Assembly (NCBI RefSeq): GCF_004114695.1
Contig: NZ_CP035310.1
Coordinates: 682,001-746,000 of the forward strand
DNA: 64,000 bases
Reading direction: 5' to 3'
Source of the DNA: Erythrobacter sp. HKB08
GTDB lineage: Bacteria; Pseudomonadota; Alphaproteobacteria; Sphingomonadales; Sphingomonadaceae
Shown here: positions 27,847-57,719 of the stretch, in pieces
Layout of the letters: every line of letters starts with the position of its first letter
Position numbering within the stretch: the stretch's first letter is position 1
Notes under the pieces: generated by a model
What the model saw: only the letters and a program-made list of their open reading frames with translations
Told to the model about the DNA's origin: nothing
The model's database searches: none
Position numbers and translations under genes: made by a program

Positions 27847-29049
27847 TTACATGCCCGAACCCGGACCGTAAGTGATTTCCACGCGGCGGTTCTGAAGTTC
27901 GCGAACGCCGTCGGCGGTCGGAACACGAAGCTGCGTTTCACCGAATGCTTCGCTCGAGATGCGAGCATCGGGGATGCCGCGGCTCGTGAGGTAAGCACGG
28001 ACCGAAGCGTTACGACGCTGCGAGAGGCCTTCGTTGTAGACCTTGGTACCCGAGGTATCGGTGTGACCGGCCAGCATGACTGCAGCGGTGCCGCAGTTCG
28101 AGTAGGCCGAAACAGCGTTGTTCAGGATGGTAGCCGCTTCAGGCGTGATGTCCGACTTGTCCCATTCGAAGAAGACAATGTACGGGCCCTGCTTGCAGAC
28201 TGCCGGTTCTGGACGTGCCGGGCAGGTAGCCGTTGCCGGGATCACCGAGCCGTTCCAGCAGGTCTGGGTCGGCGGCGGCGGCGGGGTCGGACGTGCCGGG
28301 CACGCTTCCGTCACCGGGATCACCGAACCGTCCCAGCAGGTCTGGGTAGCGATTTCAGCCGGACCACCGAAGTTGTAGGTCAGCGTACCGAGGATCGAGT
28401 GGGTACGAAGCGTACCTTCGTTGTCACGACCGAGGGTGTCGACCAGTTCGACGTTCTCGGCAGTGAACATGCGGTAGCGAAGACCAACGTCCCAGCTGTC
28501 GCTCAGCGGAGCGCGGACACCGGCGAGGAGCTGCCAAGCAAGGCCGCTGCTCGAGTCGTCGAAGACGCCCGGGGTGCGCGGGTTGGCGCTGGCGTGAACG
28601 TCGGTGCGTGCAACACCGATACCACCGCCGGCGAAAGCCTGCAGGCCGTCGTCCGGACCGAAGTCGAACAGGCCGTTGACCATGAAGCTCAGCGAGTTGA
28701 CGTCGCCGGCAGCCGGGTAAACACCAGCCGGCGTAACGCCGATGGAGTTGCCGTCGATACGCGGGAGACCCGCGGAGTCAGCCGAAAGGTTGTCGATGTC
28801 GCCTTCGCGGAAGCTGGCTTCAGCTTCGAGGCGGAATGCGCCGAAGTCGTAGCCGACGACGCCGCCGAAATCATAACCTTCCTGAGTGTCGGTCGTGACG
28901 GTGCCAGCACCGTCGTTGACGTCGAACTCGGTATCCTGGACGATCATCGGACCGCCCTGAACTTCGACGTACCACTGACCGTCACGGGCGAGAGCAGGCG
29001 AAGCAAGGGCCGTCGAGGCCATCGCCATGCCAATGACGAGTTTCCGCAT
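27847..29049 (-). CDS. OmpA-family outer-membrane protein
   Basis: A 400-residue protein. A signal peptide (residues 1 to about 21, ending ALAR) is followed by a predicted 8-stranded barrel (about 25-220), a Pro-rich cysteine-containing linker and a C-terminal OmpA peptidoglycan-binding domain (about 285-395). The binding Asp and Arg are visible in AGHTDTSGTKVYNEGLSQRR. The linker holds two near-identical 26-residue repeats, TCWDGSVIP and TCWNGSVIP each ending CPARP, encoded by a DNA repeat at 28211-28347. It is monocistronic, with a strong terminator and an AAGGGG Shine-Dalgarno. It likely tethers the outer membrane to the cell wall. Confidence 0.93.
   Translation of the reverse strand: MRKLVIGMAMASTALASPALARDGQWYVEVQGGPMIVQDTEFDVNDGAGTVTTDTQEGYDFGGVVGYDFGAFRLEAEASFREGDIDNLSADSAGLPRIDGNSIGVTPAGVYPAAGDVNSLSFMVNGLFDFGPDDGLQAFAGGGIGVARTDVHASANPRTPGVFDDSSSGLAWQLLAGVRAPLSDSWDVGLRYRMFTAENVELVDTLGRDNEGTLRTHSILGTLTYNFGGPAEIATQTCWDGSVIPVTEACPARPTPPPPPTQTCWNGSVIPATATCPARPEPAVCKQGPYIVFFEWDKSDITPEAATILNNAVSAYSNCGTAAVMLAGHTDTSGTKVYNEGLSQRRNASVRAYLTSRGIPDARISSEAFGETQLRVPTADGVRELQNRRVEITYGPGSGM
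28211..28347. repeat. Two-copy 78-bp-period repeat inside the ompA-like gene
   Basis: Copies at 28211-28269 and 28289-28347, 59 bp each, nearly identical and separated by a GGC-rich spacer coding for a proline run. They encode the duplicated cysteine-containing linker. Confidence 0.85.
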
Positions 29050-29237: not shown

Positions 29238-29699
29238 CTATTCTGTTACGGAAAGGATTCCAGACACTTCCAAGGCTTCGACCAGGGCGGTGAATGCGGC
29301 GCGGAGTTCTTCGTCGACTACTGTGCCGCCGCTCGGCTGCTCCGGGCTTGCCGCGCGCCTCCAACCGTCGCGAAACAGCAGGAACTGCGAAGTCGACCGA
29401 TCGAACAGTTTCATGCCCGGTGTCGGCGCAATGAAGTGCCAGGCGCCTGCCTGCCATCCTGCAAGCGCGCCCGCGCGCCCGAACCAGTCCTCCGAAGGGT
29501 TTTCACCGATGAGCCAAAACTCGCCGTCTTCAGGCGCCGCAGGCGGCGTGTCCGCCTCTCCGAGGACTGCGGCGTGATGGAGAAAATCGGCGAGGCAGAG
29601 CGCCTGGTTGAGGAAGAATTCCTTCTGGGCTTGGCCGGGAAAAAGCAGGGGCAGGCCGAATCGGGCGGTCCGGTCGGGAAACGGTGAGGCGAAAGTCAT
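29238..29699 (-). CDS. DUF2793-family phage/GTA-associated protein
   Basis: A 153-residue protein whose N-terminus has the DUF2793 signature LPLLFPGQAQKEFFLNQALCLAD, followed by an EFWLIG strand and GAWHFIAPTPGM. DUF2793 proteins usually sit just downstream of the large tail-tip protein of alphaproteobacterial gene-transfer agents or related prophages. Here it follows, 40 bp downstream on the same strand, a fragment resembling the C-terminus of that protein, which supports the origin. The rest of such a cluster is absent. Expression and function are doubtful. Confidence 0.8.
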   Translation of the reverse strand: MTFASPFPDRTARFGLPLLFPGQAQKEFFLNQALCLADFLHHAAVLGEADTPPAAPEDGEFWLIGENPSEDWFGRAGALAGWQAGAWHFIAPTPGMKLFDRSTSQFLLFRDGWRRAASPEQPSGGTVVDEELRAAFTALVEALEVSGILSVTE

Positions 29700-29738
29700 G
29701 ATTCACTCCAGTATTTGCGCATTAGTATCCGCTGTTCT

Positions 29739-30179
29739 TCAAGCGAGGTTCGTGAGGAAGAGTGCTGCCGACCGGTCCGAGAGGCCGAGCTGGCGGACCC
29801 AGACGGGCTGATTTGCGTATTGGGCGATCGTCGGGGCCGGGAGCACGAAGGCGGGTTGCGAGGTCTCGAACCTGGCGGACGGTGAGTCTTCCGGTCCGAC
29901 GCCGACCTCGTATCGTTCGAATTCCTCGTTGAGGCGCACCTCCAGGTCCCGGTCCCAAAGCCAGGCACCGCGCGCGCGCCGCGTCCAACCGAGATGGAGA
30001 TCGCCATTGTCAGCGAGGGTCGAAGAACCGTGCACCGGCATGAGCGGGCGCCGGGTCAGGCCCGGGTTGGCAATCTCGGCAAAGGCAGGCTCGTCATCGC
30101 CTCGCCCGATTGCTGCAAGCCTGTCGACCGAGGCGCTACCTGACGTATCGTCCCCGACAGATGTCAGTCCGCTTTGCAT
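29739..30179 (-). CDS. Probable C-terminal remnant of GTA/phage tail-tip (host-specificity) protein
   Basis: A 146-residue frame with no full-length family match that I recognise, but its core (RPLMPVHGS, GDLHLGWTRRARGAW, then EEFERYEVGVG and a final VWVRQLGLS) matches the extreme C-terminus of the roughly 1200-residue gp15/megatron protein of Rhodobacter-type gene-transfer agents. The frame stays open about 26 codons upstream of this ATG to a stop at 30258-30260, and that part also reads as plausible coding sequence. Beyond it lies an unrelated plus-strand gene. I infer a large deletion that removed the rest of the cluster. An AT-rich patch (about 30177-30190) marks the boundary. Confidence 0.65.
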   Translation of the reverse strand: MQSGLTSVGDDTSGSASVDRLAAIGRGDDEPAFAEIANPGLTRRPLMPVHGSSTLADNGDLHLGWTRRARGAWLWDRDLEVRLNEEFERYEVGVGPEDSPSARFETSQPAFVLPAPTIAQYANQPVWVRQLGLSDRSAALFLTNLA

Positions 30180-30355
30180 ATATAATATGTCTGTTCCCGC
30201 AGCGTGACCTGCGAGCGCGGCCGGTTCGGTCCCGCCCCTTCCGCGCGCGTCACGATGTCAAGGTAAAAGTGCCAAATAGGTTAGACACTATCCGGTTGCG
30301 TGCCATCGCCGGGTGCCGTAATCGGCGCGAAACGGCCAAGGGATCGCCTTTTCTC

Positions 30356-31012
30356 ATGATCATGAAACCGCTTCGCGGCCTGTACGACTGGACGATGGAC
30401 AAGGCCGCGCACCCCAAGGCCGTGTGGTGGCTCGCGCTGTTCAGCTTCGTCGAGGCGAGCTTCTTCCCGATCCCGCCGCACCCGCTGCTCGGGCTGATGT
30501 GCCTGGCAGAACCGAAGAAGGCGATCCGCTTCGCTGCGGTCGCGACCGGTTTCTCGGTGCTCGGCGGGTTGTTCGGTTACCTGATCGGCTGGGGGCTCTA
30601 CGACCTTGTCGGCGAACAGCTGCTCTCCGCGCTCGGGCTCTCGGAAGAGTTCCCGCAGGCCGCCTGCTACCTGCGCGAATACGACTGGGAGGCGATCGTC
30701 ATCGCCGGCGCGACGCCCCTTCCGTTCAAGCTGCTGACGATCACGGCGGGCTTCATCTCGATGAACCTCGTGACCTTCATCCTTGCCAGCATCGCCGGCC
30801 GCGCGATGATCTTCATGACGGTGGGCATCCTGTTCCGCCTGTTCGGGGCGCCGATCAAGCGCGTGATCGACGAATATCTCGGCACGGTAACGACCGTCTT
30901 CGTCCTGCTCGTGGTCGGCGGCTTTATCGCCATCGGCCAGCTCGGCGGGGACGAGGGCGATGCGAACGACCCCTGCGCCAACGTCACCTCGATCGAAGCC
31001 GCCTCAGCCTAA
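30356..31012 (+). CDS. YqaA-family (DedA/SNARE-associated-like) inner-membrane protein
   Basis: A 218-residue membrane protein with about five hydrophobic segments and the family motif FSFVEASFFPIPPHPLLG. The segments GATPLPFKLLTITAGFISM and ASIAGRAMIFM match the YqaA branch of VTT-domain proteins, which in other bacteria relate to lipid scrambling or envelope homeostasis. Starts at 30356 or 30362 differ by two residues. It converges with the Crp-like regulator, overlapping its end by 9 bp. Confidence 0.88.
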   Translation: MIMKPLRGLYDWTMDKAAHPKAVWWLALFSFVEASFFPIPPHPLLGLMCLAEPKKAIRFAAVATGFSVLGGLFGYLIGWGLYDLVGEQLLSALGLSEEFPQAACYLREYDWEAIVIAGATPLPFKLLTITAGFISMNLVTFILASIAGRAMIFMTVGILFRLFGAPIKRVIDEYLGTVTTVFVLLVVGGFIAIGQLGGDEGDANDPCANVTSIEAASA

Positions 31013-56916: not shown

Positions 56917-57612
56917 TTAGGCGGCTTCCGCCGTGCTTTCCGGGTCGCGCAGCACGTAGCCGCGGCCCCATACGGTCTCGATATAGTTCTCGCCGCCGCA
57001 TGCATGGCTGAGCTTCTTGCGCAGCTTGCAGATGAAGACGTCGATGATCTTGAGTTCCGGCTCGTCCATCCCGCCATAGAGGTGGTTGAGGAACATTTCC
57101 TTGGTCAGCGTGGTGCCCTTGCGCAGCGAAAGCAGCTCGAGCATCGCGTATTCCTTACCGGTGAGGTGGACGCGGGCGCCGTCGACTTCGACGGTCTTCG
57201 CATCGAGGTTCACGGCAAGCTTGCCGGTGCGGATGATCGACTGGCTGTGGCCCTTCGAACGACGCACGACGGCGTGGATGCGGGCGACCAGCTCTTCGCG
57301 GTGGAAGGGCTTGGTCACATAGTCGTCGGCGCCGAAGCCGAACGAGCGGATCTTGGAGTCCATTTCGGCAATGCCCGAAAGGATCAGGACCGGCGTCTGC
57401 ACCTTGGCGACGCGCAGCTTCTTGAGCACGTCGTAGCCATGCATGTCGGGCAGGTTCAGGTCGAGCAGGATGATGTCGTAATCATACAGCTTGCCCAGAT
57501 CCAAGCCTTCTTCGCCGAGGTCGGTCGAATAGACATTGAAGCCTTCGGTCGTGAGCATGAGCTCGATGGCCTTCGCCGTGGTCGGCTCGTCCTCGATCAA
57601 CAGTACGCGCAT
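56917..57612 (-). CDS. ctrA: Cell cycle response regulator CtrA
   Basis: A 231-residue OmpR-type response regulator. The receiver has phospho-Asp in [17 protein letters not shown] and Lys in [13 protein letters not shown]. The winged-helix part contains [17 protein letters not shown] and the recognition helix [20 protein letters not shown], which are CtrA hallmarks. It is a master regulator of cell-cycle, motility and, in many alphaproteobacteria, gene-transfer-agent genes. The upstream region has GANTC sites and a CtrA-like box. The C-terminus ends in a short Ala-rich tail. Confidence 0.97.
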
Positions 57613-57719
57613 GGGTAGGTCCCCCTTTGCCCCAGAACTCTTTCAGTCCAATCCGTGCGGTAACCCCTCGCTAAGAGGTGTTGCCCTTCATTAACCACAC
57701 AAGGTCTGAACGGAAAAGG

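Follow-up and report, generated by a model that had tools for sequence, protein, structure and literature searches.

The locus lies in the window, a 64,000-nucleotide stretch of contig NZ_CP035310.1 of Erythrobacter sp. HKB08, where two adjacent minus-strand genes are enclosed by yqaA and ompA (Table 1). The ATG-started ORF of the first gene (megC) matched the C-terminal end of the PHROG 4271 tail protein (E 1.5e-11; profile positions 1164-1276 of 1309) and the NCBIfam profile NF048004, GTA_megatron (E 1.7e-9; 1168-1271 of 1299). Alignment showed that the megatron homology runs further upstream in an open frame, beyond this ORF to about position 30246, and a whole-genome search with the megatron profile returned this single match (1125-1270; E 1.1e-12). 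The second gene encodes a DUF2793 protein, the family named as the tail fibre of RcGTA in PMC10883770, and was the only copy recovered in a genome-wide search. The two genes stand in the order of a gene transfer agent (GTA) cluster, the gp15 C-terminus followed by DUF2793. The initial annotation, made from the letters alone, had identified both genes in this way, and the profile searches agree with it; the positions that it gave for yqaA and ompA also hold, as does its placement of CtrA in the same window (a response regulator at about 56917-57642, minus strand).

Table 1. Features of the gp15-DUF2793 pair and its surroundings in the window.
Feature	Position	Strand	Basis
ompA, right-hand flank of the GTA locus	27847..29049	-	PF00691 and PF13505; synteny
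Intact DUF2793 gene, 153 aa, GTA tail-fibre family	29238..29699	-	PF10983, 3.4e-21
C-terminal 168 codons of gp15/megatron	29739..30246	-	PHROG 4271; NF048004; alignment to full-length gp15 of G001 and G002
ATG-started ORF (megC), 146 aa, inside the gp15 remnant	29739-30179	-	
Junction attributed to deletion, promoter joined to gp15 at 'RGRGGTE'	30243..30247	-	Homologies abut
Upstream half of the conserved GTA promoter, TAACCTATTTGGCACTTTTACCTTGACATCGTGACGC	30247..30282	-	Same element upstream of g1 in relatives
yqaA, left-hand flank of the GTA locus	30356..31012	+	Synteny in full-cluster relatives

In two other species of the genus (G001 and G002), a full RcGTA-type cluster lies exactly between yqaA and ompA, the same chromosomal place as the window pair, with spt, osmC, crp and yqaA on one side and the end of the megatron gene, DUF2793, ompA, SOD, MFS and queC on the other. 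The cluster of G002 comprises terminase, portal, capsid, a TIM-barrel sheath protein, gp13, gp14 and gp15. G034 and G017 also have full clusters in this place; in most of these genomes the flanking genes are yqaA and ompA, and the layout of a GTA between these two genes is preserved across many genera of the family. In the family, the sheath protein occupying the gp12 place (NCTSP plus DUF2460) contains the TIM barrel, and gp15 is without the middle part of the NF048004 profile (L065, 12043-14376 and 15659-17830).

In the HKB08 genome, a single closed contig of 2.75 Mb that is 100% complete, a genome-wide search for g2, g3, g5, g12, g13 and g14 found none of them; of the terminase, portal, capsid and tail cluster that marks a functional RcGTA-type agent, the gp15 C-terminus alone is present. 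The upstream part of the cluster is missing from the locus, as the initial annotation had stated, and the checks that it had proposed on the gp15 profile, on synteny with full-cluster relatives and on cluster genes elsewhere in the genome all came out in its favour. We found nothing to support an assembly error that collapsed a GTA cluster, and with a closed, complete contig from which the other GTA genes sought are absent throughout, such an error is extremely improbable. A similarly slight chance attaches to the fragment being a horizontally transferred or unrelated prophage piece: DUF2793 does occur in phages (PHROG matches), but the position, the gene order, the promoter relic described below and the DUF2793 tree, in which the window copy groups with its own genus (95/87), all fit a vertically inherited GTA locus of the genus, and the synteny with G001 and G002 together with this tree speaks against a horizontal origin, which was rejected.

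The other end of the missing segment was mapped through a conserved element, TAACCTATTTGGCACTTTTnnaTTGACATCGTCACGCTCTTTGGTTAGAGAAACGGAACATCGCGATAGACCGA, that lies upstream of g1 in full-cluster relatives (G002, G017, G034, G122, G183, G232, G062, G275, G263, G378 and G312). The window retains the first part of this element, through TTGACATCGTGACGC, including a -35-like TTGACA, while the -10-like part and the leader are deleted; the next letters, CGCGGAAGGGGCGGGACC, are the gp15 codons for RGRGGT. Homology on the left stops at GACGC, and homology on the right starts at the CGCGGAAGG codons. Since the promoter homology directly abuts the gp15 homology, one event would have joined the -35 region to gp15 codon ~555, and about 14 kb is missing relative to G002. 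The loss by one large deletion that had been proposed from the letters is thus backed by two mapped ends, which one deletion explains. An AT-rich patch that had been placed at the break does exist, but within the megC frame, some 70 bp off; what marks the break is the retained promoter half. In relatives, the promoter element spans about 75 bp, is strongly conserved and has AACC...GGTT half-sites around its -35- and -10-like boxes (loci upstream of g1: L065, L069, L071, L099-L101 and L134).

On these grounds, the window pair is very probably the remnant of an RcGTA-type cluster removed by a single deletion of about 14 kb. The ancestor would have carried a complete head-tail cluster, g1-g15 followed by DUF2793, between yqaA and ompA. 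The deletion would have joined the -35 region of the cluster promoter to gp15 at codon ~555, taking the -10 part of the promoter, both terminase subunits, the portal, the capsid, the sheath and most of gp15. Half of the promoter would survive, together with the tail-fibre gene and an open frame of 168 codons for the gp15 C-terminus. Lacking terminase, portal, capsid and sheath, the cell would be unable to make GTA particles, and we infer that it makes none. A single step appears the likely course, although the deletion could instead have proceeded in steps. No relative with the same scar was found (a scan of genome contigs returned only Allopontixanthobacter confluentis), so the age of the deletion is without a lower bound.

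The pair had been described as decayed in the initial annotation, and this description did not hold. While gp15 itself is shortened, both remnant frames (megC and DUF2793) are open, and the loss of coding integrity that is expected with age, though not strictly required of a remnant, was not seen. MegC is 43-48% identical to its counterparts in G001 and G002, which share 50% with each other, and DUF2793 is about 51% identical to either, against 52% between them; with synonymous sites near saturation, this degree of divergence fits recent loss and constraint equally. An open pair that is not extra-diverged points either to a recent loss or to constraint that still acts on it.

Constraint would be expected if the gp15 tail and DUF2793 had been retained because they are useful in their own right, for example in a surface or adhesin-like role beside ompA. 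The state of the two frames agrees with such a function but is equally predicted by recent loss, and the -10 region of the GTA promoter is deleted in this genome. Species of other genera retained DUF2793 although most of the cluster was lost (G004, G029, G226, G290, G067 and the 33 genomes with a TerL-DUF2793 junction described below); however, retention is over-counted, since most remnants came to light through searches for these two genes themselves, and G005, G010, G025, G030 and G084 are without any trace of the cluster. We therefore regard a retained function as unlikely, though well short of negligible, and a recent loss as the probable explanation of the open frames.

The cluster has also been lost elsewhere in the family. 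A genome of another genus, G004, retains a 142-residue megC and DUF2793 between yqaA and ompA; its deletion begins after the promoter and leader, so that the whole promoter element is present, and reaches some 50 codons deeper into gp15 than that of the window, while its DUF2793 groups with its own genus in the tree (99/96). Judged by this different breakpoint, the G004 pair is the product of a separate deletion. A shorter gp15 tail with DUF2793 and ompA is retained in G029, and further, different deletions in the same cluster were found in G226, G290, G067, G145 and G315. Evidence against a remnant would have been, according to the initial annotation, a short pair conserved with both genes intact across many relatives. 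This was found only in weak form: G004 and G029 have similar pairs, and that of G004 is independent. The variety of deletions across genera shows that loss of this GTA is frequent and repeated, in agreement with the published account of GTA loss in PMC10883770.

One deletion recurs. In 33 genomes from 17 genera, among 398 genomes of the family, the cluster is deleted with ends that agree to about 2 nt, joining TerL, immediately ahead of the Walker B motif, to codon ~21 of DUF2793. The junction was first met by protein search in G003, G099, G105 and G106, where it links TerL residue 161 (LRGPQHSHA, followed by Walker B WCDE) to AGQAQKE of DUF2793. A DNA pattern of the junction matched 24 of the 398 genomes, in 15 genera, and the reversed pattern matched none of them; the total of 33 is made up of these 24, eight from a further protein search (G314, G350, G288, G256, G273, G391, G166 and G259) and G099. 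All 24 loci consist of g1, the TerL N-terminus (TerL-N) and DUF2793 between the usual neighbours, with small exceptions such as G371, which has no visible g1. The GTA sheath gene was absent from all 32 recurrent-junction genomes searched for it. A distant phage-like capsid occurs elsewhere in the genomes of G112 and G391, and a second, divergent GTA- or phage-like cluster in G003; G314, G161 and G357 are single-contig genomes. The loci are L109-L132 (24 loci), L076-L079 and L154-L163. The window genome does not carry this junction, and its own deletion differs. We found no published description of the TerL-DUF2793 junction.

In TerL-N trees, reduced loci adjoin full ones of their own genus (G106 with G173, 100/98; G003 with G121, 100/96; G407 with G284, 100/99; G099 with G218, 99/90), and the well-supported branches require at least eight changes of state. 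The GTA body genes cluster by genus in most cases, as the flanks do. The length of the join is identical in nearly all genomes, with G256 and G099 off by 1 nt. The 2 nt at the join derive in some genomes from the DUF2793 codon (TC or TT, with AC in G350 and G288, whose relative G251 has TAC at this place) and in others from TerL GCN/TGG (CT, with GT in G314). In all cases read, the last base of the join codon is C or T, with no CTG, and although the pattern scan itself demanded pyrimidines at the join (one mismatch allowed), five junctions found without it agree. This constant C or T fits fresh joining, and we favour joins formed repeatedly, in many lineages, in one fixed register, which would fit these sequences better than drift from one ancestral junction. 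A single ancestral TerL-DUF2793 deletion followed by regain of the cluster is disfavoured by the genus-wise body genes, the nesting and the join codon. A further candidate source of the shared junction is an old deletion allele exchanged within genera.

Several mechanisms were considered for the recurrent junction. The parental sites share only 1-3 nt, which discounts microhomology. Neither the shared core nor the dyad-symmetric product of site-specific recombination was found, and a dyad-symmetric recombinase site was rejected because the half-sites match at 4-7 of 14 positions, near chance. The idea that a new ATG start codon was selected for there found no support, 10 of 24 loci having ACG or ACA.

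Walker A is intact in the TerL-N of 24 of 25 reduced loci, and dN/dS of g1 and TerL-N is low in reduced loci (mostly 0.04-0.3), a value that cannot separate recent loss from retained function. Together, these observations suggest that the losses are very recent or short-lived, or that TerL-N is still in use. In G166 (L160, L161) and G259 (L162, L163), contigs break off precisely on either side of the junction, where an assembler would halt if full and deleted alleles were mixed in the sequenced culture; since neither assembly has a contig carrying the GTA body, this is only suggestive. In G128 (L085, reverse-complement ~5642), TerL is cut at the same codon, to within about 5 nt, but continues into g9/g10, an observation that points to TerL containing a fragile or targeted site. 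It is possible, if somewhat doubtful, that the GTA cluster is repeatedly removed by a near-site-specific deletion that has its ends immediately ahead of Walker B in TerL and at codon ~21 of the fibre gene, with a 2-nt register supplied from either side.

The window remnant corresponds to the 3' end of an RcGTA-type head-tail cluster, which same-genus species keep complete, but differs from it in having only the gp15 C-terminus and the fibre gene, with no particle genes. The Sphingomonadales 'ancient prophage' (Viswanathan et al. 2017), since reinterpreted as a GTA (PMC6821227), most likely belongs to the same locus family. As in the cheater lineages of Kogay et al. (2024; PMC10883770), GTA production would have been lost while relatives keep it, and cheating would be a plausible cause; the accessible part of that paper describes no junctions, whereas both ends of the window deletion are located to the single base and set against those in other genera.

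The finding at the window is confirmed as real, correctly interpreted and ordinary in kind. It offers a clear example of GTA loss in which the two ends have been located, and it exposes a conserved GTA promoter element. The part worth following is the recurrent junction in its relatives. The survey bears on how GTAs persist against non-producers, with about 8% of the species genomes sampled having lost theirs by seemingly the same cut, g1 and the terminase N-terminus almost always remaining intact. If that cut is guided, GTA loss in these genomes would not be ordinary decay; it would be a permanent switch-off of GTA production, possibly still segregating within cultures.
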